From contig CP086683.1 in assembly GCA_030544685.1 (NCBI GenBank), positions 3,658,001-3,722,000 on the forward strand: a DNA stretch of 64,000 nt. Direction: 5' to 3'. The translations under genes were made by a program, and so were the position numbers. How positions within the stretch are numbered: the first letter of the stretch is position 1; each line of letters opens with the position of its first letter. Origin of the DNA: Pseudomonas sp. B21_DOA. Its GTDB lineage: Bacteria; Pseudomonadota; Gammaproteobacteria; Pseudomonadales; Pseudomonadaceae. The notes under the pieces were generated by a model. That model saw nothing but the letters and a program-made list of their open reading frames with translations, was not told where the DNA came from and searched no databases. Below are positions 42,241-62,916 of this stretch, piece by piece.

Positions 42241-42244
42241 ACAG

Positions 42245-43370: not shown

Positions 43371-43385
43371 CGCCTGGAGGAAACC

Positions 43386-46300
43386 ATGGGCGCAGCAGCA
43401 CAGATCGACATCCGCGGCGAGAAGGGCGGCAGCAGCAAGCCGAAATCGCCGACCGAAGCCAGCGACAGCCTGCGCTCGACTAACCTGGCCAAGCTGCTGA
43501 TCGCCGTGGGCGAGGGTGAGTTCGACAGCGTCCCGACCGATTACGACATCTACCTGGACAACACACCGATCCGCGATGCCAGCGGCAACTACAACTTCCC
43601 GAACGTGAAGTGGGACTGGCGCCCGGGCTCGGTGGATCAGACGTACATTCCCGGCATTCCGTCCGTGGAGAACGAGACTTCGCTGAACATTGAGCTGCGC
43701 AGCGATTCGCCGTGGGTGCGCTCGATCACCAACACCCAGCTTTCCGCCGTGCGCATGCGTTTGGCCTGGCCGGCGCTGCAACGCTCCGATGACCAGGGCA
43801 ATGTCGGCGGGTACCGGATCGAATACGCGATCGACGTCGCAACTGACGGCGGCGCCTATCAGCAGGTGCTGGTGGACGCCGTCGACGGCAAGACCACCAC
43901 GCGCTACGAGCGCTCGCGCCGCATCGATCTACCGGATGCAACAACTGGCTGGCAGATCCGCGTGCGCCGCCTGACGCCGAACCAAAACACCAACAAGATC
44001 GCCGACACCATGCTGGTGGCCGGTTACACCGAGGTGATCGACGCCAAGCTGCGCTACCCGAACACTGCGCTGCTCTATATCGAATTCGACGCCGAGCAGT
44101 TCACCAACATCCCCGCCGTCACCGTGAAGTGCAAGGCGCGCCGCTGGATGGTTCCGAGCAATTACGACCCGATCGCGCGCACCTATACCGGGACGTGGGA
44201 TGGCTCGATGAAATCTGCCTGGACCAACAACCCGGCGTGGATCACCTACGGCATCTGCACCGAAGACCGCTTCGGCCTGGGCAAGCGCATCAAGCCGTTC
44301 ATGGTCGACAAGTGGGAGCTGTACCGCATCGCCCAGTATTGCGACCAGCTGGTGCCGAACGGCCTGGGCGGTCATGAACCGCGCTTCCTCTGCGACATGA
44401 ACCTGCAGGGCAAGGCTGATGCGTGGACGCTGCTGCGCGATATCTCGGCGATCTACCGGGGCATGACGTACTGGGCGCAGGGACAGCTGGTGATGCAGGC
44501 GGACATGCCGCGCGCGCAGGACTTCGACTATGTGTTCACTCGATCAAACGTCATCGACGGCAAGTTCTCCTACGGCAGCGCCTCGGCGAAAACCCGTTAC
44601 ACCCGGGCGCTGGTCAGCTACGACAACCCGGCGAACAACTACGACACCGACGTCATTCCGTTCGCTGACCTGGATCTGCAACGCCGTTACGGCGACCGGC
44701 CGACCGAGCTGAGCGCCATTGGCTGCACGCGCGCCTCCGAGGCCCAGCGCCGTGGCAAGTGGGCGATCCTCAGCAACAACCAAGACCGCACCGTCTCGTT
44801 CAAGACCGGTATGGAAGGCGTTATTCCGCTGCCCGGGCACATCATCCCAGTGGCGGATTCGCTGCTGGCTGGTCGCGAAGTGGGCGGCCGGATCTCGGCG
44901 GTGGCGGGGCGGGTGATCACGCTCGATCGCGACACCCAGGCCAAGGCCGGCGACAGGCTGATCATCAACCTGCCGGGCGGCCGCGCCGAAGGTCGCACAG
45001 TGCAAAGCGTCAACGGCCGCGCCGTGACCGTCACGGTCGCCTACAGCGAGCCGCCGGTTGCGCAGTTGCAATGGGCGCTGGACGCCGATGACTTGGCGAT
45101 CCCCTCTATCGCGTGCTGCGCACCAAGCGCACCACCGAGGGTGACTACGAAATCAGCGCGCTCCAGTTCGAGCCGAGCAAGTTCGCTTTCATCGACACCG
45201 GCGCCCGCCTGGAAGAACGCCCGATCAGCGTGATCCCGATCACCGTCGTACCGGCGCCGGCGAGCGTATCGCTGTCGTCGACTTCATCGGTTGTGCAGGG
45301 GATGGCCGTGGCCACCATGACCATCACCTGGCCAGCCGTGGACGGTGCGGTTGGCTATGACGTGGAATGGCGCAAGGACAGCGGCAATTGGATCAGGCTG
45401 CAACGCACTGGCATGACCAACGTGGACGTGGTCGGCATCTACGCCGGTGCCTACGTGGCGCGGGTGCGTGCGGTGAGCGCGTTCGATATCACGTCGCCGT
45501 GGCGCAACTCGATCCTGACCAACCTCAGCGGGAAGCAGGGTCTTCCGCCGGCGCTGGCGTTCCTGACCGCAACACCTTTGCTGTTCGGTATCTATCTCAA
45601 GTGGGGTTTCCTGCTGGCGCCGAGGACAGCCAGCGCACGGAGATCTGGTACGGGCCGACGACCGATCTTGAGTCCGCGACCAAGCTGACAGACTTGGCTT
45701 ATCCGCAGAGTGATTTCTCTATGCTCGGCCTGCGCGCCGGTGTGACCTTCTATTTCTGGGGGCGCATCGTCGACAAGATCGGCAACATCGGTCCGTGGTA
45801 TCCGATCGGCAACGGTGTGCAGGGGCAATCGAGCGCTGACGCCGCGGCAATTCTGGAAATGATCGCCGGTGAGATCGGCCGCACGGAGCTGGGGCAGGAC
45901 ATCCTCGACGAAATCGACAAGATCCCGGGGTTGCAGGCACAGATCGATGCGCTGGATGGGCTGAAGACTTATAACCCTGACGACATCTACGAGGAGTATG
46001 ACCTAGTCGTGGTGGGCAAACGGATCTACCAGGCCTCCGGCCCCGTGCCCACCGAAACGCCTCCGCCGAATCCGCTCTACTGGCTCGACGTTGGGCAGAC
46101 GGTGGAAACTGCCAATGGCCTCGCCCAGCAGGTCGCGACCAACACCACCGAGATCACCGAACTCGACGGCGTTGTCACTGCGCAGGCGACAGCGTTCGAG
46201 GCACTGCGCGCATCGTTTCGGGATGACGACGGGGAGGGCGATCTCGCTGACGCGCTGAAAGGTTGGAGCACCACGGCAGCAGCCGCTTCTGAAAGCAAGG

Positions 46301-46950
46301 TCAGGGCTTCTGAGAACTTTGCCAGTGCGCAGAAGATCTCCACGCTGGATGCCAAGGTGGGCGAGAACGAGGCGAACGTGACGGATCTGCGCCAGGTGGT
46401 TGCCACTGACAAAGAAGCCACCGCCCAGGCAATCACTCAGCTCAGCACCACCGTCGGAACGCAGCAAACAGCGATTGAGCAAAACACGTCCATCGTCAAT
46501 GACGTGAACGGCAAGGTCTCTGCGAGTTGGTCGGTGAAGATGCAGTACAACTCAGGGACGGGTCAGTACATCGCGGCCGGTGTGGGCCTGGGTATCGAGA
46601 ACGGACCAGCCGGATTGCAGAGTCAGTTCCTTGTCAGCGCTGATCGGTTCGCCATCGTCAACACCATTGCCGGCGGCGCCATCGCGGTGCCGTTCGCCGT
46701 GCAGGGTGGGCAGGTGTTCATGAACTCGGCGTTCATTCAGGACGGAACGATCACCAACGCCAAGATCGGCAGCTACATCAGTTCCACCAACTACATCGCG
46801 GGCCAGCAAGGCTGGATCCTGAACAAAGACGGCACTCTGGAAATAAACGGCATTGTCCCGGGGCAGGGCCGCTTGGTGATCAACTCACTGAACCTTTCTG
46901 TCTATGACGCCAATAACGTGTTGCGTGTTCGTCTCGGCTATTTGGGGTAA
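43386..46950 (+). pseudogene. Host specificity protein J (tail tip), two frameshifts
   Basis: Restoring one C in CCCC 45101-45104 and one C at 45610-45611 gives about 1,188 residues. Landmarks: an N-terminal hub part (SLRSTNLAKLLIAVGEGEFD), DYDIYLDNTPIRDASGNYNF, the conserved SNYDPIARTYTGTWDGSMKS, a fibronectin-like region (ATMTITWPAVDGAVGYDVEW), and a C-terminal coiled-coil and beta region (VATNTTEITELDGVVTAQAT). J forms the tail tip and fibre that binds the receptor. The C-terminal part differs most among phages and sets host range. Likely intact in the organism. Confidence 0.9.
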
Positions 46951-46953
46951 TCC

Positions 46954-47307
46954 ATGGCTCTATTCGGCCTTCGTGTGTTCAACGAGAGCGGTCAGCTCGC
47001 TATGGACACAAACAGCTCAACCTATCAGGTGATCTGGCAGGGCGTGATCGATTTCAGCGGTAATACGCCCAGCTACACCCTGAACATTCCCGGCTTCAAC
47101 CCGGCCAATTGCGTGTTCATGATCATCCCGACGAGAGCACAGGACGTGCAGCCTTCGGAGAATGACTCGTCGGGGAACCTTCGATCCTATCCATACGTCA
47201 CGACGGCGGTCGGTCAGGTTGTGGTGCAGCCGAAAAACCCCTCGTCTACGACCGGCTTGCAATCGAAAGTTGTCTCGAAGGCCTATGCAATAAGGTTTGC
47301 CACATGA
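46954..47307 (+). CDS. Tail tip / fibre accessory protein (117 aa)
   Basis: MALFGLRVFNESGQLAMDTN is followed by a beta-rich IWQGVIDFSGNTPSYTLNIP. The sequence resembles short proteins behind J in Pseudomonas prophages. It lies 4 bases after J and overlaps the next gene. Probably a virion surface protein. Confidence 0.7.
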   Translation: MALFGLRVFNESGQLAMDTNSSTYQVIWQGVIDFSGNTPSYTLNIPGFNPANCVFMIIPTRAQDVQPSENDSSGNLRSYPYVTTAVGQVVVQPKNPSSTTGLQSKVVSKAYAIRFAT

Positions 47308-47965
47308 GCTACGGTTTTCAGAGCATCAACGATAACTCGTTTGTCCAGATCGACTCCGAAGCGCCACGGCTCTGCATGCTCACCAAAGGTTCCTATTCGG
47401 GGGTGGCGACCGCGACGGCCACATTTTCACGCGCAGTGACCAGCCAAGACCCGCCGCTAGTGTTCATTCGTCCGGACCAGACCGGCGTAATTCAGGTTCC
47501 GTATTCGGTATGGTTCACCGGTGGTCCAGGCAACTGGACTGGGTTTTCGATGAATGCGTCGAAGGTCAACGAGTCGTTGAGCGGTCAATATTTCGTGGCG
47601 GCATGGGCTTCTATGGGGACAGCCACTTACGGTCTGCGCCTGTGGGATCCAAATGGTGTGCTGTGCTACGACAGCGGCGCGCCGGCAGTGGTCGTGACAT
47701 TCGCGGCGGGAAACTGGACGTACATCGGCACAGAGCAGCTTAGCGTCGGGCAGCGCTATATATGGGGATCAACAAGGCGCTGGGTGTAGGCGAATACGTT
47801 TCCATCAATCCTTTCACGATGACCTGTCACAACAACTCATCAGGCGGAAGTTGCGCGCTGGGCGTTGATTACGCCAACGGCCGAATCCTGATGTACAGCC
47901 TTGCCTCGAACGCCTGGACAGATCAGGGGCATCGGCCCTTCCTCTGCGCCAAATTGCTCGCCTGA
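47304..47965 (+). pseudogene. Tail tip / fibre protein, one frameshift
   Basis: MSYGFQSINDNSFVQIDSEA opens a beta-rich protein related in layout to the preceding gene (both start with a short tip-binding motif). At 47771-47772 one A is missing; restoring it joins QRYIWGSNKALGVGEYVSIN to DYANGRILMYSLASNAWTDQ and the end AKLLA, total about 220 residues. Probably a receptor-contacting or accessory tail protein. Overlaps the upstream stop. Confidence 0.7.
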
Positions 47966-47990
47966 GCTCGTCTATTTCTGGAGTTAGTCA

Positions 47991-49196
47991 ATGACCTGGT
48001 ACAAGACCGGGACGGTTTCTGTCGTCCAAAATTCCAACGCAGTGGCCGGCACCGGGACTTCGTTCCTGTCCAACGGGCGCGTAGGTGATGCCTTTCGGGG
48101 GCCCGATGGTGGGTGGTACGAGATCACCAACATCGCCAGCGATACCGCCATGTCGATCTCGCCGGACTACCAAGGCGCGACCAACGCGGCCGGTATTTAC
48201 GCGATCGCTCCGATGCAGGGGTATGTGAAGGCATCGGCGGACGCGCTGCGGGCCCTCGTCAATCAGTTCGGCGCGCAGTTGGCGGCCTTGGGCACCACCG
48301 GTAATTACAACATTCTGCCGCTGGAAAAGGGCGGGACCGGCTCTGATACTTTGGCGGGGGCGAAAAGCAGTCTCGGCATTCTCGATATCCAGACTGTGGT
48401 GCGCGGCGGGACAGGTGCGAATAATGCGCCAGAAGCGCTCACCAATCTGGGCGCGCTGCCGTTGGCTGGCGGTAAAATGACCGGCGCTCTGAACGAGGCG
48501 ACCGTTGTCACCCTTGCCAGTGCGGCCACGGTAAACATCGGCGCCGCCGCTTCGAACATCGTCAGCATCAGCGGGAACACGACAATCACGAGCTTGGGTG
48601 TAATCGCCTCGGGCGCGCGGCGCACGCTGCGCTTCACCGGCAGCCTCGTCCTGACGCACAACAGCTCGAATTTGATTCTGCCAGGTGGCGCAAATATCAC
48701 GACTCTGCCCGGCGATTCGGCTGAGTTCCTGAGTTTTGGCTTAGGGTCGTGGGCGTGCCTTGACTACTCTCGCGCAAGCGGCAAGCCGATCGCTTTCGCC
48801 TACGACCGATCCAACATCCTAGGCGCCCTTGCGCAGGCGGGCGGTGTACCGACGGGCGGTATTATCGAGCGCAGCTCGAACTCGAACAGGTCGTACGTGA
48901 AGTTTGCCGACGGGACGCTGATCTGCACGCAGACGAACCAGGGCTCGCTCGGGTTCTACAACGCGTCGAACATCGGCTTTATCTGGACCTACCCCCATCC
49001 TTTCAGCTCATACAACTTTGCTACGGCGAACATCGTGGGAACGCTTGGTATTTCCCGAGGGGTCACGTCCGTCGGCGCCTACTCTCGCAACGCGACAACC
49101 GCAAACATTTCGGCATTCAGCTTGGGCGGCTTCGCCGGATCTGATGCTACCTCCTTCACTTTCGACTGTTTCGCAATCGGGCGGTGGTACGAATGA
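47991..49196 (+). CDS. Tail fibre protein
   Basis: A 401-residue protein with MTWYKTGTVSVVQNSNAVAG, then TGTSFLSNGRVGDAFRGPDG, a typical fibre N-terminus. Repeats of the LEKGGTGSDTLAGAKSSLG and VVRGGTGANNAPEALTNLG kind follow, ending in NLGALPLAGGKMTGAL. The C-terminal third is a beta-rich tip (GGIIERSSNSNRSYVKFADG, WTYPHPFSS, FDCFAIGRWYE). It binds the cell surface. The stop overlaps the assembly gene. Confidence 0.88.
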   Translation: MTWYKTGTVSVVQNSNAVAGTGTSFLSNGRVGDAFRGPDGGWYEITNIASDTAMSISPDYQGATNAAGIYAIAPMQGYVKASADALRALVNQFGAQLAALGTTGNYNILPLEKGGTGSDTLAGAKSSLGILDIQTVVRGGTGANNAPEALTNLGALPLAGGKMTGALNEATVVTLASAATVNIGAAASNIVSISGNTTITSLGVIASGARRTLRFTGSLVLTHNSSNLILPGGANITTLPGDSAEFLSFGLGSWACLDYSRASGKPIAFAYDRSNILGALAQAGGVPTGGIIERSSNSNRSYVKFADGTLICTQTNQGSLGFYNASNIGFIWTYPHPFSSYNFATANIVGTLGISRGVTSVGAYSRNATTANISAFSLGGFAGSDATSFTFDCFAIGRWYE

Positions 49197-49915
49197 AAAT
49201 TATCTTGAGCCCCCAGCGGCGTGATGATCAATTGGTAGTAACCAAAAGCGGCGAAGTCCTGACCGTCAACGGTTTGGTTTACGACTTCTCGCCGATGGGC
49301 AATGGCGACACTCTGCCGCGTGATGCATTGAACAGCGAGTGGTTCGCCGGGGACGTCGACAAGGTCGATGGGGAGCTGGTGCTGACCCTGTTGCTGCCCA
49401 ACCCATGGAACTACAGCCAGGCACAAGCGTTTCCCGTGCCTCTTCTCAACGTCCCGGACGGCCCCGTCGTCTTCCCCGAACCCAATCCTGTAGAGGAAAA
49501 CGCAGAGCAGCAGGCGCCAAGTCTGGCAATACCCGCGATGGCCTCGGCCGGAGTTATTGACTGGTCGAAGCTGATCACCGCTGCGATGAAAGCGACGGCG
49601 GCAGCGGCAGAGCATCTGGCACAGGCCAAGGCTGATCTTACTGCGCGGAATGCGAGAGCGGTCACCCAGATCGCGCGCATCCAAGACCGGGTCGATACGA
49701 TCGGATTCGGCATCGATATCGGCGAGGCAACTGCGGAGGACGAAGCCGAACAGGCTGCTTTGCTCGTAACGCTCAAGGCTTGGAAAAAATACAAGTTCGA
49801 TTTGGGCAAGGTGACGACGCAGCCGACCTGGTATCAGGCGCCGGTCTGGCCGACCGAGCCGCCAATCCCCGAGATCGTCGCTGCGCCCATGCTCGTCACT
49901 GCCGAGACTGTTTGA
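49193..49915 (+). CDS. Tail fibre assembly chaperone
   Basis: MKIILSPQRRDDQLVVTKSG and LTVNGLVYDFSPMGNGDTLP, then WFAGDVDKVDGELVLTLLLP and NPWNYSQAQAFP are typical of fibre-assembly proteins in Pseudomonas phages and pyocins. The middle is helical. The C-terminus has YQAPVWPTEPPIPE. 240 residues. ATGA overlap with the fibre gene shows coupling. Confidence 0.85.
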   Translation: MKIILSPQRRDDQLVVTKSGEVLTVNGLVYDFSPMGNGDTLPRDALNSEWFAGDVDKVDGELVLTLLLPNPWNYSQAQAFPVPLLNVPDGPVVFPEPNPVEENAEQQAPSLAIPAMASAGVIDWSKLITAAMKATAAAAEHLAQAKADLTARNARAVTQIARIQDRVDTIGFGIDIGEATAEDEAEQAALLVTLKAWKKYKFDLGKVTTQPTWYQAPVWPTEPPIPEIVAAPMLVTAETV

Positions 49916-49934
49916 TCGTAACGGAACCACTTCG

Positions 49935-49954
49935 CCCGCTTCGGCGGGTTTTTT
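49935..49954 (+). terminator. Terminator after the fibre genes
   Basis: CCCGCttcgGCGGG followed by TTTTTT, then AATGCCTGGAG and the hydrolase start codon. Confidence 0.85.
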
Positions 49955-49971
49955 AATGCCTGGAGAAAAGT

Positions 49972-50393
49972 ATGATTCCCACTGAAAAAGACCGCGACAT
50001 CCTTGCGCGAACGATCTGGGGCGAAGCGCGAGGCGAGGGCCCGCCGGGCAGGTTGCCGTGGCCTGGACTATTCGCAATCGCGTGTTCGATGGGAAGGAGA
50101 AGTCATGGTGGGGTGAAGGCTATGCCGGCGTCTGCCAAAAGCCGTGGCAGTTCAGCTGCTGGAACAAGACTGACCCGAACTATCAGTTCCTGATCGGCGT
50201 GAAACAGATACCGTTCCGCGAGCTGGCGCAGTGCCGGATTGCTGCTGACCAAGTGATCGACGGCAAGGTGCCGGATCCGACCGGCGGTGCCACCCACTAC
50301 TACGCCACCAGCATCAAGGCGCCGGCCTGGGCGGCGAAGGCCAAGCAGACACTGAAGCTCGGTCATCACATCTTCTTCAAGGATGTGCCCTGA
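49972..50393 (+). pseudogene. SleB-type cell-wall hydrolase (probable endolysin), one frameshift
   Basis: MIPTEKDRDILARTIWGEAR followed by GEG and, after one missing G near 50043, QVAVAWTIRNRVFDG, SWWGEGYAGVCQKPWQFSCW and ATHYYATSIKAPAWAAK. This is the hydrolase_2/SleB domain of lytic transglycosylase-like wall enzymes, about 140 residues in all, without a signal peptide. No endolysin lies near the holin, so this is the best candidate for the lysis enzyme. Confidence 0.85.
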
Positions 50394-50441
50394 GGCGGAT
50401 GCCGCTATCCTGTTGCTGATCCCAACAAGGCAGGAGGCGGC

Positions 50442-50672
50442 ATGGAAGGTGTAGAACTGAGCCCGAACATTGAGCGCGCTGCAGACAAGCTTCTGGCTGA
50501 GATTGCGCGTGCAGACTCGATGATCATCGCAGCCAAGGCGGGCGCCAGGGCTGAAGGATTTATCTATGGCCTAGAGTCGGCGCGCGCCTTAACCGAGTCC
50601 ACCATCGATAAGCTCTACGTCATCTTCGACAACGCGACCGAGAACCGTCTGCGAGCGCTGACTTCTACTTAG
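50442..50672 (+). CDS. Small helical protein (76 aa)
   Basis: MEGVELSPNIERAADKLLAE opens a fully helical protein with KAGARAEGFIYGLESARALT. It has a good ribosome site (AGGAGG). It sits between the hydrolase and the convergent YedK-type gene. No family was recognised. Confidence 0.6.
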   Translation: MEGVELSPNIERAADKLLAEIARADSMIIAAKAGARAEGFIYGLESARALTESTIDKLYVIFDNATENRLRALTST

Positions 50673-51364
50673 AGCAGGCTGTTTTCCTCGATCGGCTTAA
50701 TCAAATACGGGCCCTGATTGCGGACATTACCCACGGCGCGGTCGACCTTGAACCATCCGAACGCCTCCGATGGCTCGCCCTCATGCAGAACCATCTGCTC
50801 GGCGCGTTCTTTTGGCGTGGCCGGGTCGAGCCATTCGCGGGCAAGCTCTGGCGGCAGAACAACAGGGCGCCGGTCGTGAACATCGACCATGCCGCCGGCG
50901 CTGTCGGCGGTGATGATCACAAAGCCGTCGTGCTCGCCGGGGCCGTGCTCCTCGTTCGGGTATTGGCCGATCGCTGCGCACAGGATTGGGGATTGGTCCC
51001 GGTGCCTGATCAGGTAGGGCTGCTTCTTCGCTTCCCCTTCATCGACCCACTCGAACCAGTTGTTGATCGCGATGATTGCCCGGTGCGGCCAGATCGCGCG
51101 GAAGAACGGGCCATGGGCGACTTTCTCCACGCGGGCGTTGATTGGCGCGGCGCGGTCTCTCGCCCAATGCGGGCGCCATCCCCAGCGAACCATGTCCGCG
51201 TGCAGAAACTCACCTTCCTGGTGGAAGAGGGCCAATTGAGTGGTCGGCGCGGCGTTGTACCGCTCGAGCGGTTGCTCACCCACCGAGTTGATCAGCGCGT
51301 TCGGCATGCTGAGCGCTGCTACGAAGTCGTGAATGCCGCTGTATTGGGTGAGTCGTCCGCACAT
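50669..51364 (-). CDS. SOS-response-associated peptidase (YedK/HMCES family)
   Basis: A 231-residue protein: MCGRLTQYSG with the catalytic Cys at position 2, RYNAAPTTQLAL, NARVEKVAHGPFFRAIWPHR, NNWFEWVDEG (active-site Glu) and MVDVHDRRPVVL (His). YedK/HMCES proteins form a covalent cross-link with abasic sites in single-stranded DNA to protect them. In a prophage it might guard replicating DNA. Runs opposite to the late genes together with the next two genes. Confidence 0.92.
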   Translation of the reverse strand: MCGRLTQYSGIHDFVAALSMPNALINSVGEQPLERYNAAPTTQLALFHQEGEFLHADMVRWGWRPHWARDRAAPINARVEKVAHGPFFRAIWPHRAIIAINNWFEWVDEGEAKKQPYLIRHRDQSPILCAAIGQYPNEEHGPGEHDGFVIITADSAGGMVDVHDRRPVVLPPELAREWLDPATPKERAEQMVLHEGEPSEAFGWFKVDRAVGNVRNQGPYLIKPIEENSLL

Positions 51365-51388
51365 TGCCGTGCCCTTGGGGGATCTGAT

Positions 51389-52114
51389 TCAGCGTAGACC
51401 CGCTGGCGCTGGCTTCGTCACAAAACCTTTTCCGGCGCATGTCGTGCAGTCGTCCCTGGCACCGAAGCGATCGAGGCACTCAGGACAAATGCAGAACGCC
51501 GCCGACTCGATGTGCGGGCGTAACTTTTCAAACGCCCGAAGATCCCGCTCCTCTTGAGCGACCTGCGCCGCATCGACGAGCGCCCGGTAGACGTCAGCAT
51601 CCGCGAGAGGGTGGTGAGTAACGCCGTCAACCATTCGCTCGGTTTCAATAAGTCGGTACCGGCAACCGTTCATCTCCATCGCCAACCCGGCAATCTTTCC
51701 GACCCTACGAGAGATTCCAAGCGACAACCAAACTCCGTCGGGTTCGGAGTACACCTTTCCGTCATAGCCAGAGTAAGCGCCGCGCGGCTCACTCTTTGCG
51801 AAGTTGAATATTGACCGACTGATGGTGCCAAGCAACTGCCCGTTGTCGATGTGCACCACGTCATAGCTCGATGCGCCCCGGTACTGGCCAGGCAAGCTCT
51901 GCAGTTCTTCCACTGCGTGCCAATAAGCTGCGTCGGCCATTTCGTTCATGTCGAACTGCTCGAGCTCGTCGATCAGGCCTTCACTCAGCAAATCCATCGC
52001 CATTTCTCGCAAGGTCGCCCGGTGCGCTTCGGGGCTTTGCTTACGGAAGTCGTGATCATCGAGAGTGGCTCGCCAGCGATCAAGGCGAAGGGATTTTGCT
52101 TGGTTGAAATTCAT
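51389..52114 (-). CDS. Phage protein with C-terminal DnaJ-like zinc ribbon
   Basis: A 241-residue protein. The N-terminal half is helical (MNFNQAKSLRLDRWRATLDD; RATLREMAMDLLSEGLIDEL). The middle has a VHIDNGQLLGTISRSIFNFA segment. The C-terminus has CPECLDRFGARDDCTTCAGKG, two CxxC pairs with the CxxCxGxG pattern of DnaJ zinc fingers. Common at the late end of Pseudomonas prophages as I recall. Function unknown. Confidence 0.7.
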   Translation of the reverse strand: MNFNQAKSLRLDRWRATLDDHDFRKQSPEAHRATLREMAMDLLSEGLIDELEQFDMNEMADAAYWHAVEELQSLPGQYRGASSYDVVHIDNGQLLGTISRSIFNFAKSEPRGAYSGYDGKVYSEPDGVWLSLGISRRVGKIAGLAMEMNGCRYRLIETERMVDGVTHHPLADADVYRALVDAAQVAQEERDLRAFEKLRPHIESAAFCICPECLDRFGARDDCTTCAGKGFVTKPAPAGLR

Positions 52115-52196
52115 GAAACGGGTTCGCTGTACGAGTGCTGTATGTATGTACAGTAATCGAGGCGAAGCCCGTGGGCGAGAGTGAGGCGACGAGCTG

Positions 52197-52406
52197 TCAG
52201 TCGGGCGTCATCAAAACAGCCAAGGTCATTTTGATGAATTCTTCATTCCGATCGAGCGCGGCCAGAGAGCTGCGGACGTTTTCCGCGACGTCGGCGGATC
52301 CGCGCTGCTCGACCCAGAGGGTGAGCTCCATGATGGCGGCTTCAAGAGCGAGCTGGTTTTCATTGATTTTGAAGAGTAGGGAAGGGAGCAGATCAGAGTT
52401 TGACAT
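52197..52406 (-). CDS. Small helical protein at the prophage end (69 aa)
   Basis: The start MSNSDLLPSLLFKINENQLA at 52406 has GAGGAAA upstream. The protein is all-helical with ALEAAIMELTLWVEQRGSAD. An upstream extension of the frame to 52475 is not supported. The following 270 bases up to the att core show no gene. Confidence 0.65.
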   Translation of the reverse strand: MSNSDLLPSLLFKINENQLALEAAIMELTLWVEQRGSADVAENVRSSLAALDRNEEFIKMTLAVLMTPD

Positions 52407-52676
52407 TGGTTTCCTCCTTGGACGAAACCAGAGTAGCAGGGGATTCAATGTCGGCAGAACGCCGGAGAAGGGCAAAGTGCTGGACTATGCAGAGTCGGCA
52501 TAATGCCAGCTGCTCAGTACCCGATAGGATTTCAATCTTTACGTAAAATTTGAGGTCTTTTTTCGGGCCGCAATCATTCTGCGGTATGCGAAAACATTGG
52601 GCCGAATGGCAGTCTTTCGAATCGAATTGCGGCCCAAAAAATCGCATCCAAGCCGCAGCCCGCTTGATTCTGGCGC

Positions 52677-52734
52677 GGGACTTAAAATCCCCGCTCGTAA
52701 GGGCGTGCCGGTTCGATTCCGGCTTCGGGCACCA
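52677..52734 (+). other. att core: 58-nt 3' part of tRNA-Leu(UAA)
   Basis: From GGGACTTAAAATCCCC through the TTCGATTC arm to GGGCACCA this matches the anticodon stem-loop (UAA), variable arm, T arm and acceptor 3' end of Pseudomonas tRNA-Leu. The 5' part (D arm and acceptor 5' strand) is absent; the upstream bases do not fold to replace it. It is therefore the integration core, not a working tRNA. The integrase stop lies 6 bases downstream and phage-type genes lie upstream, which is the arrangement of an uncut attP. Confidence 0.85.
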
Positions 52735-52740
52735 CGAATA

Positions 52741-53856
52741 TCAAGGGCTTGCATGACATACCTCGTGCAAGCCCTTTGTTCTTTTTCCGCAATCAAAAAA
52801 TCTTTTCCGCAATTCGTGACCGTTAGTCACTTCGTAGGGGTGACCTTCATCCCCTCGCATTCTGATGTACTGCTCAGTCATACCGACTGTTGTGTGCCCG
52901 AGCTGGTCCCGAGCCTCTCGGATGCTGCCTGTCGACTCCTCCTTATCCGTCGCTGCTTTAGCTCTCAAGTCGCGCATCTGAAATTCTGCCTTTGGAATTC
53001 CGGCTGCTTCCCTGGCGTCATCGAACCTTTTCCTGAGCATACTGGGCGTCATCGGCTGCCCAGAGTCGATAACTACCAGACGTGTTGATCTGATTTTGTG
53101 TCCGGCCTTTCGCTCCATGATTCGATCGATCACGATTTTGAGTTCACCAATAATCTCGATCCTTCGCTTAGCCCCGGTCTTGCCTTGCTGTACGGAAAGC
53201 TTCCCGTCTTTTATGTCGCGCTCATCCATCTTTAATGTGTCTGCGACTCTCTGTCCTGTTAGATAGAAAAGGTCCAAAGCATCTCTCAATGGTTGATCGG
53301 CATGCTGGTAGGCTCTGGCAAGAACGTCATCTTCGACATATATGTCGCGACCGCTTTCTTTATTGCCCTTCACGCCTGAGCAAGGATTAGCCAGTGAGGT
53401 ATAGCCATTCTCGCGAGCAAAGTTCCAGATGGAACTGAGTAACGCTTTCTCCCGATTTGCACGAATAGGGGCTGTCTTACCGCGATGACGAAGGTACTGG
53501 CTGACATGTTTCGGTTCGATAGCCTCTAGAGGAGCGGGTGGATCGTTGAAGAATAGGAGAAGGTTTTTCAGTTCGCGGGCGTTGTCCTTCTGGGTGGCGT
53601 GGGCTTTTGTGGGAACTACCTCGTTCATATATAGCTCGGCCACGTAAGCAAAAGTAAGAACGGTTTGCGTCAATGCTTGTGAAACTCGGCTTTTTTCGAG
53701 CTTTGCGTACTCCAAGATGGCTAGGCCGTAATCGGTACCTAGCGGGATTTCCTTGCGTGGTTTCCCGCCAGTGTCATAAAGATAATAGATGGTGCTGCCG
53801 CGTTTTCGCTCGCGCAGGCGAGGAATGCTTCCCGGCTTTGTTGGTCTTCGTCCCAT
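52741..53856 (-). CDS. int: Tyrosine-type phage integrase
   Basis: A 371-residue lambda-type integrase. An N-terminal arm-binding part (MGRRPTKPGSIPRLRERKRG) is followed by a core-binding domain. Catalytic residues: Arg in FYLTGQRVADTLK, the second Arg in FQMRDLRAKAATDK (the usual His of HxxR is Arg), His in QLGHTTVGMTEQYIRMRG, and Tyr in the same motif. The 3' end abuts the tRNA-Leu core, as expected for a tRNA-targeting integrase. The DUF4224 gene upstream is directly adjacent. Confidence 0.92.
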   Translation of the reverse strand: MGRRPTKPGSIPRLRERKRGSTIYYLYDTGGKPRKEIPLGTDYGLAILEYAKLEKSRVSQALTQTVLTFAYVAELYMNEVVPTKAHATQKDNARELKNLLLFFNDPPAPLEAIEPKHVSQYLRHRGKTAPIRANREKALLSSIWNFARENGYTSLANPCSGVKGNKESGRDIYVEDDVLARAYQHADQPLRDALDLFYLTGQRVADTLKMDERDIKDGKLSVQQGKTGAKRRIEIIGELKIVIDRIMERKAGHKIRSTRLVVIDSGQPMTPSMLRKRFDDAREAAGIPKAEFQMRDLRAKAATDKEESTGSIREARDQLGHTTVGMTEQYIRMRGDEGHPYEVTNGHELRKRFFDCGKRTKGLHEVCHASP

Positions 53857-54093
53857 TTATCCCACCAAGCGAGGTTGCCAAGTCGGAGCTTCTGGCGCGC
53901 TTGTAGCTACTCCTGTTAGCGCCGAGGCAATCACGCAGGGCCAGCCATTGCGCTTGATGGTGTGACGAACGCCATTGCGCTTCAGCACAGTAATCTGACC
54001 TGCTTTGGTTTTAGCTCCAGTCAGCTCGCAGACCTGTTCATGGCTAAGAAACTGAGTAATTTTGAATCTACCACCGCATGCGTAGTCACCCAT
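53857..54093 (-). CDS. DUF4224 protein, probable excisionase/regulator
   Basis: A 78-residue protein with FLSHEQVCELTGAKTKAGQI and TVLKRNGVRHTIKRNGWPCV, the DUF4224 pattern. Members sit next to phage integrases and probably work as excisionase or integrase regulators with a small winged-helix fold. The TAA directly precedes the integrase ATG. Only 35 bases separate its start from the chromosomal RidA gene, so the usual phage genes upstream of it are missing here. Confidence 0.8.
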   Translation of the reverse strand: MGDYACGGRFKITQFLSHEQVCELTGAKTKAGQITVLKRNGVRHTIKRNGWPCVIASALTGVATSAPEAPTWQPRLVG

Positions 54094-54128
54094 TTTAAGA
54101 TCTGGATATGCAGGTGGTTGTCAGAAGG

Positions 54129-54520
54129 TTATCGCTCTACTGCGACGCACTTGATCTCCACGAGAAGGCCAGGTCGAGCTAATTCACTGACACCAATGCA
54201 GGTCCATGCACAAGTACTTCTCGGAAAGACTTTATCCTTTACGCGTCTGAAAATTGGCATGTGACGGTGCATGTCGACGTGGTAAGTTGTCATTTCTACG
54301 ACATCTTCAAATTTACAGCCACCTGCCTCCAAAACGATCCGAAGATTGTCCCATGCAGCTAAAAACTGCTGCTCAGGTTCTTCAATGACGGATAATTCCG
54401 GCGTCCTGCCTACCTGACCCGCGCAGTAGAGAGTTTTCCTACCTTTACTGCTGGTGCATAACCCGCGCGCTCGTAGATCAATCTCATGCCATCTGGAACA
54501 ATGATCTGACGGTCAGTCAT
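54129..54520 (-). pseudogene. RidA-family (YjgF/UK114) protein, one frameshift; first chromosomal gene
   Basis: MTDRQIIVPDGMRLIYERAG leads to YAPAVKVGK; the frame is lost at TTTTCC 54434-54439. One base gives TLYCAGQVGRTPELSVIEEP and on through LEAGGCKFEDVVEMTTYHVD to GLLVEIKCVAVER, about 130 residues. RidA proteins hydrolyse reactive enamine/imine intermediates; this one has the conserved Arg near STCAW as usual. It ends 35 bases from the integrase module. Confidence 0.82.
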
Positions 54521-54752
54521 GATTGCGGAGCCCCAAGTTAGAACGGTTACGAAAGCTAACTCAGGGGCCAGAGCCGCGTCCACTCAGTTCACTTCTCATC
54601 TATTAATCAACCCCACAGGTGCTTTTAGCCGCTGCTGAGTCTTGTTGAACTCATTACCTAATGTGGCTACCTCGATCGATGCAAAAGGCGCGAGCCGGTA
54701 GCGTTACTGATCAGAAGCATTTCGATGGTTGGTTCGCTGCTAGGCTGGCTCG

Positions 54753-55406
54753 TCAGTTCGTGTCGTCATCACCTTGAAATATATCTGCGTAAAGTCGCGC
54801 GACTGTAGGGGTAAGGTTACGACCGGTAGGAATGAGAAAGTCGGCGTGTGGTGCGAGCCGTTTTACGTAGATGACTTCGTAAACCCTGCGCACGATTCCA
54901 GGTGCTGTTTCTTCCCGGTCCAAGCCAGGCATTATCCCTACCGCTTTGTAACCGGCTTGCTCCAGTGCTTGTTGCATATACGGCGTGCGGGTTGTTGCCA
55001 TGCCATAGATCAGCCCCGCGCCCATGAACGTGCCGATTTTTTCTCCCAGGTCCTGGGCCGCAACGGCCAGTCTGGCTTGTCTGTGCGGTTTGGCTACCGC
55101 GCCGACCCGCCCGAAAATAACGTCAGCACCGTCAATTTTTTCCCACGTGGCGATAGCGACAATCTCATCGTTCTGGCGGACGACGGTAGCGAATATGCCT
55201 CGATCCGGATCGTCTTCGAGCACCACGTTGTCTGCGTAGAACTGCTGGTCCAGAAACGGGCTTGCCAACCCCACCGAAATGGAGGGAAACCATGTCCGGA
55301 AAAAATCTGTCGCGACATTGATCTCCTCACGTTTCAGGTAATCCCAACTGTAGCCATAGGGTAAATCGGTGAAGCTGCGAATTTGCTCGATCGTTGGCCA
55401 TTTCAT
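54753..55406 (-). CDS. GNAT-family N-acetyltransferase
   Basis: A 217-residue protein; the start MKWPTIEQIRSFTDLPYGYS at 55406 is chosen over the upstream frame. The core reads GIFATVVRQNDEIVAIATWE, then VGAVAKPHRQARLAVAAQDL (acetyl-CoA loop region) and AGLIYGMATTRTPYMQQALE, EQAGYKAVGIMPG, a GNAT-like layout. Substrate unknown. The interval 54521-54752 contains no gene. Confidence 0.7.
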   Translation of the reverse strand: MKWPTIEQIRSFTDLPYGYSWDYLKREEINVATDFFRTWFPSISVGLASPFLDQQFYADNVVLEDDPDRGIFATVVRQNDEIVAIATWEKIDGADVIFGRVGAVAKPHRQARLAVAAQDLGEKIGTFMGAGLIYGMATTRTPYMQQALEQAGYKAVGIMPGLDREETAPGIVRRVYEVIYVKRLAPHADFLIPTGRNLTPTVARLYADIFQGDDDTN

Positions 55407-55452
55407 GCGGTTCTGCTCGTTTGTCTGATTGCTTCGATAAGTGGCGCCGGGG

Positions 55453-55785
55453 TCAGGCCCGAGGGTCAGGGTTATTGGCGGGTGCCGGGGCATGCCTGGC
55501 GGCGATCTGCCTGTGGCGCTCGACCACTTCGCCAATGACCAACTGCATCAGCCTCTGCACGATGGCCGTATCCAGCTCGGCCTCCTGAGCAAGTGCTGCC
55601 AGACGCTGGTATTGCTGCTGCTCTCTGGCCTCGTCTACCGCAGGCAACTGATATCGGGCCTTGAGCAATCCGACCTCATCGGTACAGCGAAACCGTTCCG
55701 CGAGCAGGTGGATGAGGGCGGCGTCGATATTGTCGATGGTTTTCCTGAATGTTGAGAGTTGACGCGCGATGTCGGAGTTTTCCAT
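55453..55785 (-). CDS. Chorismate mutase (AroQ/PchB type)
   Basis: A 110-residue helical protein: MENSDIARQLSTFRKTIDNI, DAALIHLLAERFRCTDEVGL, then KARYQLPAVDEAREQQQYQR and a C-terminal VQRLMQLVIGEVVERHRQIA. The Arg in the first helix, the KARYQLPA Lys/Arg pair and the following helix are as in AroQ-class mutases and isochorismate-pyruvate lyases. It could make prephenate or act in salicylate metabolism. In the same direction as its neighbours. Confidence 0.85.
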   Translation of the reverse strand: MENSDIARQLSTFRKTIDNIDAALIHLLAERFRCTDEVGLLKARYQLPAVDEAREQQQYQRLAALAQEAELDTAIVQRLMQLVIGEVVERHRQIAARHAPAPANNPDPRA

Positions 55786-55819
55786 GAATGACCTCGTGAC
55801 AGGTGTTCGAAAGAGCTTC

Positions 55820-56670
55820 TCAATGATTCGTCTGCTGAGCAAAAACCGACCAGTCCTTGTCGCCATCTCCCCTGGCTACCGCCGACGTCATTTTCAATCG
55901 CACGGCATCCGCCGCTGGCAACTCCAGCCCCTTGAGACGACCCGCATCGATCGCCAGATTCATATCCTTGAGGCCAAGCGACAGTTTGAATCCCGGTTCA
56001 AAATTGCTGCTGACGATGTTCCGCCCATAACGTTGATAACTGGGGCAGGCGAACAGGGTCTGGGTCATGAGCTTGATGAAAATCGAAGGGCTCAGTCCGT
56101 GGCGTTGAACGAGCCCGCTGGCTTCGCCCAGCGACTGGATGGCTTGGGTGATCATCATGTTGCCGGCGATTTTCGCGATACAGGCCTGTTCAGGTTGGTG
56201 GCCCAGATACCAGGTTTTTTCCCGAGCAGGTCGAACAGCGGTTGGACGGTCGAGACAGCAGCCTGCGATCCGGCCGCCAGGATATTCAACTCGCCCTTGG
56301 CCGCCACGGCTGGCACGCCGAACACCGGCGCCGCGATCAATGGCATGCCGACGGCTTCATGTTCGCGCTGCAACTCCAACATCAGCGAAGGCGACAAGGT
56401 CGACATCACGACATGCACGCAAGCTTTGTCTGCAGTTTCCAGAACAGCGCTGGCGAGCAGCACTTGCCTGACAGCGGCATCATCGGCCAGAAGAGTGATG
56501 ACCACCTCTTGCTGGAACGCCGAGGCCGGCGATTCGATAACGCTGATGCCTTCGAGATCCTTGATCGCCGCGTGACTGCGGTTCCATGCCGAGACGTGAT
56601 GGCCTGCGCGGACGAGCAGCGGAATGATCGCTCTGCCCATGCTTCCAACTCCGATAAAACCAATCTTCAT
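55820..56670 (-). pseudogene. 3-hydroxyisobutyrate-dehydrogenase-like NAD(P) oxidoreductase, one frameshift
   Basis: MKIGFIGVGSMGRAIIPLLV is the Rossmann GxGxMG dinucleotide site; WNRSHAAIKDLE and LLADDAAVRQVLLASAVLE follow, and SMLPSLM-type substrate motif occurs as MSTLSPSLMLELQREHEAVG. At T6 56215-56220 (A6 on the coding strand) the frame is lost. A7 gives KKTWYLGHQPEQACIAKIAG and NMMITQAIQSLGEASGLVQR, restoring 283 residues with the catalytic Lys in AKIAGN. Diverges from a LysR gene, probably its regulator. Confidence 0.85.
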
Positions 56671-56788
56671 TTGCAGTCTCCGGTTGGTATTCGACGACGG
56701 TGAATGCAGACAAGTATGTCGGGCACGGGATTGCTACGGCACTGCCATTGCTGCACTCTCACTGTTCATTTTTGTACGGGGGCAGAGC

Positions 56789-57649
56789 ATGGACTGGAGT
56801 GATGTGCGGGTCTTTCTCGCGATTGCCCGCAGCGGGTCATTGGGCGCTGCCGCCAAGCTGTTGGGGGTCAGCCATCCGACCGTGGGACGGCGCTTGCAGG
56901 TGTTGGAACAGTCCAGTGGCCAACCCGTTTTCCTGCGTACCAACCAAGGTCTCGTGTTGACCGACAGCGGCGAGAAGCTCTTCAGCCTCGCGCAGGAAAT
57001 GGAGCAAAGTGCGTTGGCCATCGAAAGGCGCCTCGCGGGGGACAGCGCACAGCCCGAAGGTGTGCTGCGCATTTCCTGCGCTGACTGGTTCGCCTGTTAT
57101 GTCCTGGCCCCGGTGCTGAGTGAACTGGGCCGGCGTTATCCATTGATCGTGCCCGAGGTCATTGCCGGGCATCGATTGTTTGATCTGGCTCGCCGCGACG
57201 CCGACATCGCGTTTCGAATCGTTCCGTTCACCGAACCCGATATCGTGCATCGCAAGCTGATCTCCCTGACTTACGGGTTATACGCAGCCGTTGGATCTGC
57301 TGACCCTGAGCCACAGGGCGCCGGGCTGGGTCTGATCACCATGAGTGTTGCCCAGTCCCATTATCCCGATGTGCAGTGGCTGCAGCAGCGTTACCCTCTG
57401 GCGCGTACCGTGTTTACCAGTAGCAGCCGCACAGTCCAGGCGCAAATGTGTGCGCAGGGGCAGGGCGTCGCGGTATTGCCCCGCGCTTTGGGCGACCAGT
57501 TGACGGCGCTGCGTCTGATCGATTCAGATGAACCGCCACCAGGCCGCGACATTTGGATGGGCTACCACCAGGACATGCGCCAGATGGACAGCCTGCGCGC
57601 GCTTGCCGACCTGGCCTCCGTCATGATCGGCACTCAGGCAGGCGTTTGA
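56789..57649 (+). CDS. LysR-family transcriptional regulator
   Basis: A 286-residue regulator: MDWSDVRVFLAIARSGSLGA, then AAKLLGVSHPTVGRRLQVLE is the LysR winged helix. The effector domain follows (GVLRISCADWFACYVLAPVL; LARRDADIAFRIVPFTEPDI; TRTVFTSS-type repeats). The start at 56789 has GGGGG upstream. The 118-base gap to the divergent dehydrogenase gene likely holds its operator. It ends next to the convergent MFS gene. Confidence 0.9.
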   Translation: MDWSDVRVFLAIARSGSLGAAAKLLGVSHPTVGRRLQVLEQSSGQPVFLRTNQGLVLTDSGEKLFSLAQEMEQSALAIERRLAGDSAQPEGVLRISCADWFACYVLAPVLSELGRRYPLIVPEVIAGHRLFDLARRDADIAFRIVPFTEPDIVHRKLISLTYGLYAAVGSADPEPQGAGLGLITMSVAQSHYPDVQWLQQRYPLARTVFTSSSRTVQAQMCAQGQGVAVLPRALGDQLTALRLIDSDEPPPGRDIWMGYHQDMRQMDSLRALADLASVMIGTQAGV

Positions 57650-57650
57650 T

Positions 57651-59108
57651 TCACTCTGCCGGGTGCATGGCCGCCGTTTGCAGCTCTGCAGCAGGTTGGC
57701 GCGCCAGACTCAGGCTCAGTCCTGCGCCTACGGCCAGACAGGCAGCGATGCACAGTACGGCGACGGTGAAGGCGTGGGTGATGGCCGCCGCGTCCGTGTC
57801 CTTGCCCAGAAGCGTGTAAAAAATGCCACCGATGATCGCCACGCTCAGTGCCGTGCTGATTTGCAGGGTGGAACTGGTGATGCCCGCAATCATGCCGGAA
57901 TACGCCGGTGCCACGCGTCCTGTGATCATGCGCATCAATGTCGGAAGGGCCAGTCCTTGTCCGAAGCCGATCAGAAAGAGAATCACGGCAAGGGACAGCG
58001 CAGAGGGCGTGACGGCCGTCGATGTGTGCGCCACGAGCCAGGCCAATAGCACGAACCCCAGCACTTCGAGTGACATTCCGAAGGGATTCACATAAGACCC
58101 CAGCAAACGCCTGAACAGATGGGTGGTGAGCGGCCCGAGCAAAAAACCTGCGCCGAATGGAAGGAAGACCAGACCTGCACTGAGTGGGCTCGTATGCAGC
58201 GCTCCCTGTAAATAGATGGAAAACAGCAGGAAGAACACACCGATTGCGTAGAAGGTCAGTGCGACGAGCAATGCCCGGCCCAGCCCGGGCGCACGCAGTG
58301 CAGCAGGGTTCAGCAACGGCGCGCCTTGCGCTTGGTACAAACGGGCTTCGTAGCGCCAGAACAGCCAGGCAAGCAGTGGCGCCGCCGCCAGCGACAGCCA
58401 GGCCCACAACGGCCAGCCCGCTTCACGTCCCTCGATCAGCGGAACGATCAGCGCCGCAAGCGTCACCATCGACAACAGCGTTCCACCCAGATCCAGCTTG
58501 CTGGTCTGGGGAGCGCGGGTTTCCTTGACCACGGGGATGGCGATCAGAATGACCAGCAACGCAATCGGTAGATTCACCAGAAATATCGCCCGCCAGCCCA
58601 AGTTCATCAGGTTGAGCGAGATCAGAATCCCGCCAAGTGCCTGGCCGACGACCGACGCCAAACCAAACACCGCACCGTACAGGCTCAACGCCAAGGGTTT
58701 TTCCGACTCAGGGAATATCGCCTGCACTGAAGCGAGTGCCTGCGGCGCCATGACAGCGGCCGTCACGCCTTGCAGCGAGCGTCCGGCGATCAACACCCAG
58801 GGTGACTCGGCGACACCGCAGATCAGTGAGGCGACGGCAAAGCCAATCAGGCCGACGAAGAACATTCTCATGCGGCCAAAGATGTCGCCAAGCCGTCCGC
58901 CGGTGATCAGTGTCACGGCATACAGCGCCGCGTAAGAAGAGATGATCAACTGTTCGGCAGAGGAGGCCGTGCCCAGCGATTGCTGAATCGAAGGCAGCGC
59001 TACGTTGACGATGAAGAAATCCAGCGGCGGCAAGAATGCACCGACCAACAGGATGGCGAACATCAGCCAGCGCCGCTGTTCCGGAAGGGCTACTATTTTC
59101 TCAGGCAT
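57651..59108 (-). CDS. MFS drug exporter, DHA2 (14-helix) family
   Basis: A 485-residue membrane protein with about 14 hydrophobic helices. DHA2 motifs: PLDFFIVNVALPSIQQSLG, LITGGRLGDIFGRMRMFFVG (motif A), and SLQGVTAAVMAPQALASVQA. The start MPEKIVALPEQRRW at 59108 has AAGGAGA upstream. It probably exports a toxic compound by proton antiport. Divergent from the SDR gene across a 222-base region with a TetR-type palindrome. Confidence 0.92.
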   Translation of the reverse strand: MPEKIVALPEQRRWLMFAILLVGAFLPPLDFFIVNVALPSIQQSLGTASSAEQLIISSYAALYAVTLITGGRLGDIFGRMRMFFVGLIGFAVASLICGVAESPWVLIAGRSLQGVTAAVMAPQALASVQAIFPESEKPLALSLYGAVFGLASVVGQALGGILISLNLMNLGWRAIFLVNLPIALLVILIAIPVVKETRAPQTSKLDLGGTLLSMVTLAALIVPLIEGREAGWPLWAWLSLAAAPLLAWLFWRYEARLYQAQGAPLLNPAALRAPGLGRALLVALTFYAIGVFFLLFSIYLQGALHTSPLSAGLVFLPFGAGFLLGPLTTHLFRRLLGSYVNPFGMSLEVLGFVLLAWLVAHTSTAVTPSALSLAVILFLIGFGQGLALPTLMRMITGRVAPAYSGMIAGITSSTLQISTALSVAIIGGIFYTLLGKDTDAAAITHAFTVAVLCIAACLAVGAGLSLSLARQPAAELQTAAMHPAE

Positions 59109-59215
59109 AAGGTCTCCTTTCTGAAACCCTTCGGCTCCAGAATATTTTCGATTGCGAGTCATGCTTTGAATAAGCTGACTTCAATCTAAACGATCAAACC
59201 CTGGCTGACGCCTCA

Positions 59216-59244
59216 CATAAATGAACGGCCAATGTTCATTTATG
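59216..59244. promoter_or_regulatory. TetR-type operator between exporter and SDR genes
   Basis: CATAAATGAAC, 7 bases, GTTCATTTATG: a perfect inverted repeat with 11-bp arms, the geometry and ATGAAC/GTTCAT core common for TetR-family sites. No TetR gene is in the window, so the regulator is elsewhere. It is placed to control both divergent genes. Confidence 0.75.
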
Positions 59245-59330
59245 GCAGTGCCGCTGCGCCCCTGCCTCCTCGCAAAATGGCCGCACTGTGGTTCCAGTCG
59301 AGCCACACAACCGAAATCGAGGAGTCAGTT

Positions 59331-60088
59331 ATGTCAGGTAAATTCGCTGATCAGGTCGCAGTCGTCACCGGCGCGTCCACCGGGATCGGATTTGCGATTG
59401 CACAGGGTTTGATTGCCGAGGGCGCCAGGCGCGTTTACATCACCGGGCGTTCTGCAGCCACGCTGGAGGCTGCGGTGGCCAAGCTTGGCGACAGGGCGGT
59501 CGCGGTCATTTCCGATGTCGCGCGCCAGGTTGATCTGGACGAGCTCAAGGCGACGATCGAGGCGCACGACGATCAACTGGACTCAGTGTTTGCCAATGCG
59601 GGTATTTGTGAAAAGAACCCGCTGGGCGAGACCACCGAGGCCGCCTATTTCAACATGTTCGACATCAACGTAAAGGAGTCTTTTTTACTGTACAGACGTT
59701 GATGCCATTGTTGAAAAATGGCGCTTCGATCGTACTGACGGCCTCTATCTGTTCCAGCAATGGCATGGAAGGACTGAGCCTCTACAACGCCTCCAAAGCC
59801 GCGGTACGTTCCTTTGCCAGGACGTGGGCCAACGAACTCAAAGGTCGCAAGATCAGAGCGAATGTCCTGAGCCCTGGCTTCACCCGCACGCCACTGATGG
59901 ATAACGGCTTGAAGATGAGCGAAAGCGACGTCGCCGCGCTGCGTCAGCACGTCGAGCAGATCACGCCATTGGGGTACATGGCCGAGCCTGAAGAAATCGC
60001 CTCGTCGGCGCTGTTTCTTGCGTCGGCCGATGCGAAATATGTCAACGGTGTGGAGTTGATGGTCGACGGCGGCCTGTCGCAGATCTGA
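59331..60088 (+). pseudogene. Short-chain dehydrogenase/reductase, one frameshift
   Basis: MSGKFADQVAVVTGASTGIG (TGxxxGIG cofactor site), FANAGI and, after a missing T in T6 59681-59686, FFTVQTLMPLLKNGASIVLT, ASICSSNGMEGLSLYNASKA (YxxxK active site) and SPGFTRTPLMDNGLKMSESD. Restored length 252 residues. A classical SDR acting on an unknown alcohol or ketone. It shares a divergent control region with the MFS exporter. Confidence 0.87.
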
Positions 60089-60166
60089 CCACGTGCTCAA
60101 CCGTAGCGCAGCCCTCGCGCAGGGCTGCCTTCCTCGCTTATGCGCAGCCCCTGCAGGAACCTCATC

Positions 60167-60673
60167 ATGAACAATGAACAACTGACAGCCCGACTGGACG
60201 CCCTGGAAAGTCGCGCCGCCATCGAGTCGCTGATCAGCGCCTACGCCAATGCTTTCGACCGCATCGACGCCTCGCTTCTTAGCTCAATCTGGCACGAAGA
60301 GTCGACATTGGATCTACCGGGTTTTGGCCAGGCTGGAAACCGTGACGAAATCCTGGCGATGGCGCAAAACAGCTGGCGCCAGATGCCCCATATGCACCAC
60401 TGGATGGCCAACCCGCTGATTGAAATCGAGGGTGACAGCGCAGTGGGCACGGTAGCTGCGGATTGCCTGTTTCATGACATTGAAAAAGGCCCGGTGCAAG
60501 TCAGCGGTCTTTACCACGACAGGTTTGAACGTCGGGACGGAAAGTGGGCCTTCCTGTCACGTCGTTTTGAAATGCATTTCCTGACGCCGTTAAAAGATTG
60601 GGTACCCGCAGCGGGCGAAGAACAGTTTGCACCGTTCGAGCAGCTCAAGGGAACGACAGCGAAAAACGAATAG
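60167..60673 (+). CDS. SnoaL-like (NTF2-fold) protein
   Basis: A 168-residue protein: MNNEQLTARLDALESRAAIE, SLISAYANAFDRIDASLLSS, IWHEESTLDLPGFGQAGNRD and MHHWMANPLIEIEGDSAVGT belong to the SnoaL-like NTF2 superfamily that includes small isomerases and dehydratases. It follows the SDR gene and probably works with it on the same compound. Its 3' end overlaps the convergent kinase gene by 29 bases. Confidence 0.82.
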   Translation: MNNEQLTARLDALESRAAIESLISAYANAFDRIDASLLSSIWHEESTLDLPGFGQAGNRDEILAMAQNSWRQMPHMHHWMANPLIEIEGDSAVGTVAADCLFHDIEKGPVQVSGLYHDRFERRDGKWAFLSRRFEMHFLTPLKDWVPAAGEEQFAPFEQLKGTTAKNE

Positions 60674-62701: not shown

Positions 62702-62827
62702 CGTCAGGCGCGCTCGGGTCTCTTCATGACGGGATTCAGCCCGCGACATCGGTATCTCGGCTGTGCAGTGTAGCGGGATGAACGGGCGCAGTCGGTTACA
62801 TTTCTGTCATTCACCGGCAGGGCTGAC

Positions 62828-62847
62828 GAATGACAAAAATGTCATTC
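62828..62847. promoter_or_regulatory. Probable binding box of the adjacent response regulator
   Basis: GAATGACA-AAAA-TGTCATTC, a perfect 8+4+8 inverted repeat like copper-regulator (CusR/CopR) boxes. A second, weaker copy with the same TGTCATTC half lies at about 62793-62812. It sits between the regulator gene and the divergent periplasmic protein gene. Confidence 0.75.
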
Positions 62848-62916
62848 GGCGGTCATCGTGACGTCCCGATCTGCGGTCGAGGATGGCGACACATCAACCC
62901 ATGAGGAATCGTCGCC

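Follow-up and report, generated by a model that had tools for sequence, protein, structure and literature searches.

An attachment core flanked by mobile DNA on both sides: a probable tandem array at tRNA-Leu(UAA) in Pseudomonas

Why an attachment core should carry phage or other mobile DNA on both sides is the question raised by a 58-nt sequence, here called core 2, in a 64,000-nucleotide stretch of DNA whose named relatives place its source in Pseudomonas. This whole stretch, referred to as the window, corresponds to G000:C1:3658001-3722000 in a one-contig genome of 5.94 Mb. An earlier note on the window had described a tRNA-Leu core with late-end phage genes on its left and an integrase gene and a DUF4224 gene on its right, and had offered two readings: the uncut attP of a permuted prophage, or the joint of two elements in the same tRNA, the second of them nearly deleted. 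The description was borne out; the observation is real and its cause is ordinary. The junction is very probably, to judge from its sequence, the inner boundary of a tandem array of two elements that share the 3' end of tRNA-Leu(UAA) as their attachment site, and the arrangement is of an ordinary, already known kind.

Core 2 and the DNA on either side

Core 2 is identical, over all 58 nt, to the 3' end of an intact tRNA-Leu(UAA) located outside the window at G000:C1:3654118-3654175; within the window, ARAGORN found zero tRNAs. An exact match of 58 nt to a tRNA 3' end beside an integrase gene is evidently not due to chance. To the left of the core lie genes for a tail fibre, an endolysin, and then three proteins matching phage families of unknown function, and to the right lie the tyrosine integrase int2 and the DUF4224 protein, followed 35 bases on by the end of a RidA-like gene (Table 1). 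Mobile DNA flanking an att core on both sides is the appearance of a tandem array's inner site, and core 2 appears to be at once the right att site of a prophage (P1) and the left att site of a second element (element 2). It would resemble an uncut attP because its two arms come from two different elements.

Table 1. Positions of the features discussed, in window numbering unless a genome position is given
Feature	Position	Strand	Basis or remark
Prophage P1, right 52.7 kb	1..52676	+	cores, integrases, PHROGs matches
P1R, right end of P1 before core 2	52401..52676	+	used for typing
Core 2	52677..52734	+	58-nt copy of tRNA-Leu(UAA) 3' end
int2, tyrosine integrase, 371 aa	52741..53856	-	PF00589; phrog_1 integrase
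DUF4224 protein, probable excisionase	53857..54093	-	PF13986; PHROGs 'excisionase'
Deletion scar of element 2	54055..54056	.	sequence comparison
Bacterial cargo of element 2	54056..64000, continuing right of window	.	Pfam; CFBP13508 comparison
RidA-like gene (PF01042)	54129..54583	-	split into two frames; a single 151-aa open frame in CFBP13508
Core 3	G000:C1:3725198-3725255 (67198-67255)		3.2 kb right of window

Short CCGCAAT-like motifs, which may be arm-type integrase sites, were seen by eye on both sides of the cores, but are too similar between the two elements to discriminate them, so that whole end sequences were used for typing instead. Among 50,697 phage records, four match the junction, each only within the tRNA core, and none contains the joint of P1 with int2. 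No published account of this locus was recognised in the available portions of the literature searched.

Three cores and two integrases

Because the inner junction of a tandem array has this appearance, further cores should be sought outward before permutation is invoked. The genome contains three cores in one orientation, starting at 3654118, 3710677, and 3725198. Core 1 forms the end of the intact tRNA-Leu(UAA) and lies 3.9 kb to the left of the window. It is adjoined by a second integrase, int1, of 358 aa, whose identity to int2 is 66-71%, varying with the part compared. The order is tRNA-Leu, int1 and the rest of P1, core 2, int2, the DUF4224 gene, bacterial cargo and the right end of element 2, core 3, and an integrase remnant. 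Core 1 is separated from core 2 by 56,559 bp (P1), and core 2 from core 3 by 14,521 bp (element 2). The remnant to the right of core 3 is broken and resembles the C-terminal end of an integrase in two short pieces (E 1e-7), and the chromosome resumes at about 3728738, a rough placement made by comparison with Pseudomonas sp. CFBP13508. The array thus has its outer core in an intact tRNA and an integrase of its own beside the left core of each unit, and one related genome, CFBP13508, is precisely without one of the units, P1. The earlier note had named in advance an intact tRNA-Leu with a second integrase on the left, and another core to the right of 54.1 kb, as what would speak for simple tandem elements against permutation; both were found.

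P1 measures 56.6 kb and begins at the tRNA-Leu and int1. From int1 onward, the PHROGs matches run through a replication-like protein, NinG, an Rz-like spanin, the terminase large subunit, portal and head proteins, the tape measure, tail proteins, the tail fibre, and the endolysin to core 2, an order that rests on 20 scanned proteins and is the ordinary early-to-late one, with no permutation. P1 is bounded by cores 1 and 2, whereas a permuted prophage would have its ends away from a core. The sole Rfam match at gathering score in the window, a Proteo-phage-1 RNA (RF03044), lies at 20985-21063 in P1, between the replication and lysis regions.

Insertion into the 3' end of a tRNA would restore the tRNA and leave a copy of the core at the far end of the inserted element. 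We infer that element 2, an island with int2 and the DUF4224 excisionase, inserted first, and that P1, with int1, later entered the restored tRNA and displaced element 2 rightward. Each integrase would still act on its own pair of cores. Element 2 has lost the DNA between its excisionase and its cargo.

Comparable arrays have been described, as far as the available parts of the respective papers extend. In Mycobacterium abscessus, two sequential site-specific integrations have been proposed for the tandem prophages prophiT36-2a and 2b at tRNA-Thr; there, too, two different elements share one tRNA attB, and the inner site is the attR of one and the attL of the other, although both units are prophages, whereas the present array pairs a prophage with a gutted island at tRNA-Leu(UAA) (PMC9934374). 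Enterobacterial PICIs form tandem satellite pairs at one site with three related att sites, as here, but with other integrases and other sites; deletion in a tandem of satellite and prophage is likewise discussed for them, and the word Pseudomonas occurs 0 times in the text of that paper (PMC10111431). Tandem insertion has also been proposed to form composite islands in Bordetella petrii, whose clc-like islands GI1-GI3 share with the present array the tandem order and related integrases and att sites, but are conjugative (ICEclc-like) islands (PMC2717098).

Element 2, its cargo and its possible origin

The core lies beside the integrase gene at 17 of 18 named loci encoding relatives of int2, and ARAGORN called tRNA-Leu(UAA) at 14, so that int2 evidently belongs to tRNA-Leu(UAA). 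Likeness to other int2-type elements stops at position 54055, and likeness to the cargo of CFBP13508 starts at 54056; the first codons of the DUF4224 gene derive from the cargo side of this scar. The DNA that follows the excisionase is common to seven of the eight int2-type loci other than ours and that of CFBP13508, the exception being L040, which does not share it at the length shown, while the post-excisionase DNA of element 2 and that of CFBP13508 each match only the other.

In the three relatives scanned (L034, G144, and G029), the excisionase is followed by a CI-like repressor and by a primase of 802-804 aa; Pfam gave an S24 domain for the one repressor tested and a VapE-type assignment for both primases tested. 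A small-terminase gene comes next in G029 (phrog_57; no Pfam match), followed by bacterial cargo that includes xanthine-dehydrogenase-like genes and a caspase-helicase protein; G029 also carries a second integrase fragment, and its element may be composite. The subset of ORFs scanned in G029 and G144 contained neither capsid nor tail genes. In P. siliginis SWRI31, an RHS-repeat protein and a phage-GPD/baseplate-like protein are encoded in the first 20 kb of contig C1, a stretch whose membership of that genome's second element is uncertain. CFBP13508 retains a partial small-terminase gene beside its cargo, 87% identical to that of G029 over 605 bp, and has a different internal deletion. Element 2 is without the repressor, primase, and small-terminase genes of its relatives. 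Element 2 and the CFBP13508 element would descend, through two different deletions, from an ancestral element of the G029 form that carried RidA-type cargo, and RidA lies beside the DUF4224 gene because of the deletion in element 2 between excisionase and cargo. The 999-aa G029 protein with caspase-like and DEAD-helicase domains lies near the right end of its int2-type element (L022:12841-15840).

Element 2 may descend from a phage-satellite-like island, since its relatives carry a CI-like repressor, a VapE-type primase, and, where it was sought, a small terminase. Like Gram-negative PICIs, as described in the available part of their account (PMC11773190), these relatives have an integrase, an excisionase, a repressor-like gene, and a primase; the ORFs scanned in them include no structural gene. 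Unlike those PICIs, they have no identified AlpA and can be as long as about 40 kb, with large bacterial cargo, and element 2 itself retains only the integrase and excisionase, its own repressor and primase having been deleted. The copy in this genome has lost the genes that would test the satellite label. The small terminase of G029 and the P1 protein encoded directly ahead of TerL show no similarity, a comparison that says little either way. The int2-type islands, whose relatives resemble PICI-like satellites, are the part of this locus that might reward a specialist. It is a tentative and rather doubtful suggestion that they form an undescribed Pseudomonas family of phage-satellite-like islands with unusually large, changing bacterial cargo, sharing an attB with lambdoid-order prophages of the P1 kind; in tandem, the excision or packaging of P1 could then move the neighbouring cargo of an element that lacks its own control genes.

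The cargo of element 2, about 12.7 kb long, encodes by Pfam a RidA-like protein, chorismate mutase, a dehydrogenase, a LysR regulator, an MFS transporter, an SDR protein, a SnoaL-like protein, and a two-component system. It matches 59 of 398 genus genomes at E <= 1e-300, our own included, most of them over one part only. A long collinear block at 88-92% identity is present in seven genomes (G082, G257, G211, G350, G317, G163, and G311); in G082 and G257 it forms a 15.7-kb unit, 99.2% identical between the two, outside which no alignment over 300 bp was found in the stretches fetched. In other species, it looks as if the unit were carried by a different mobile element. In G082 (L079/L080), the cargo-related unit is sharply delimited at contig positions 3097171-3112827, with similar sequences at its two ends. 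RidA, in the six genomes fetched, is flipped relative to ours and located at the opposite end of the block. As the block is located elsewhere in other genomes with its RidA end flipped, RidA is not a fixed neighbour of this tRNA; the earlier note had placed the gene correctly, within 35 bases, but had called it chromosomal, and its use as a chromosomal anchor was rejected, the gene belonging to a block that behaves like mobile cargo. The tandem account gives no explanation for the flipped and moved RidA end.

The reading in which the second element was almost wholly deleted, with the chromosome starting at RidA, takes its support from the proximity of RidA to the DUF4224 gene across the scar and from the missing repressor, primase, and small-terminase genes, but is very improbable, as core 3 and an int2-type right end are present 14.5 kb to the right, the cargo shares 98.7-99.1% identity with that of CFBP13508 where the flanking chromosome reaches 89.6-92.8%, and the cargo block is found elsewhere in other species. 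Of the earlier note's second reading, the two elements in one tRNA stand, and the near-total deletion gives way to a unit that extends to a right end and a core of its own.

Two minor features of the cargo region deserve mention. The SDR gene at 59232-60088 is, like the RidA-like gene, split into two frames here and open in the 99%-identical block of CFBP13508, and both splits may be sequencing errors or real pseudogenes. Between its cargo and right end, CFBP13508 encodes a 1270-aa SIR2_2-domain protein (L015:1081-4893, G033), perhaps for anti-phage defence; about 1 kb of other DNA takes its place in our genome.

Relatives: the site without P1, paired ends and other tandems

In CFBP13508 (G033), tRNA-Leu is joined directly to an int2-type element with like cargo, and P1 is absent. 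Its left flank shares 94.5% identity with the tRNA side of our array and 38.6% with the end of P1, and the right flank shares 89.7% with our int2 side and 67.6% with the int1 side, so that the locus is evidently a site empty of P1. It is not a clean ancestor, because the int2-type integrase there is truncated and, over the aligned part, about 10% different from ours. The comparison with relatives that the earlier note had proposed for the RidA locus yielded this empty site, without making RidA a chromosomal neighbour.

Elements in the fetched relatives were typed by which integrase adjoins the left core and which sequence adjoins the right one, genomes with several handles (L043/G067/G149 and L044/G033/G150) being counted once each. 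The ends proved to be cognate: int1 occurs with P1R in all five typed elements of its kind (our own, G011, G066, G081, and G143), and int2 with the other right end, E2R, in all seven of its kind (our own, G029, G033, G035, G067, G140, and G144). No crossed pair occurs among these 12, and the two arms of the core do not derive from one phage type, as they would under permutation; a split of five and seven has a probability of 1 in 792 if the elements are independent, a figure that is in truth weaker because they are related. The count leaves out elements for which an end was untyped or unfetched or whose two ends are on different contigs (G001, G064, G113, G142, G145, G147, G151, G152, and G157, as well as the second element of G143), together with further unfetched ones; the right end of G152 gave a 75% match in one comparison and was absent from the typing comparison. 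P1R-like sequence lies to the left of the inner core in G011, G066, G081, and SWRI31 (G143), with an int1-type integrase at the other end in each.

Other tandems are seen in two of these genomes. In SWRI31, the integrase at one core is 99.7% identical to int1; 54 kb from that core comes the order P1R, core, int2, and excisionase near a contig end, and E2R with a core lies on another contig. In P. brassicacearum 38D7 (G152), the outer core is accompanied by an int1-type integrase (94%) and the inner core, 50 kb away, by an int2-type remnant.

These genomes bear on permutation, in which the phage circle would have been inserted elsewhere, near the DUF4406/DUF4224 region, leaving its own attP uncut at 52.7 kb. 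Element DNA lies on both sides of core 2, as that reading predicts, and the P1R-core-int2-excisionase stretch of SWRI31 aligns with ours in one piece at 90%, like an attP. However, SWRI31 has an int1-type integrase at its outer core and is thus itself a tandem, the intact tRNA-Leu and int1 bound P1 on the left, the genes of P1 run from the integrase through early to late, the ends of the 12 typed elements are never crossed, and CFBP13508 has the site without P1, which together leave permutation with next to no probability. Both permutation and the single deleted element were rejected on the evidence of the wider genome and the relatives. An assembly mis-join of P1 and int2 at the repeated core, with which a listed completeness of 95.32% in one contig and the split RidA and SDR genes would fit as signs of an error-prone assembly, is just as hard to credit, since SWRI31 has the same joint on one contig and both element types occur in full tRNA-Leu contexts in other genomes.

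The tRNA-Leu(UAA) gene is a repeatedly used site in Pseudomonas. The core is matched at E <= 1e-8 in 92 of 119 genus genomes, and 11 of the 119 have at least two matches within 100 kb of each other on the same contig and strand, a count of core matches in which not every pair was checked for an intervening element; three matches occur only in G000. Two matches on different contigs in G060, G083, and G121 were uncounted. In three relatives, the tRNA-Gly/Cys/Leu cluster is split by about 38, 44, and 19 kb (L023/L024 in G019, L028/L029 in G005, and L031/L032 in G021, respectively), either between Cys and Leu or between Gly and Cys, so that the whole cluster looks like an integration hot spot.
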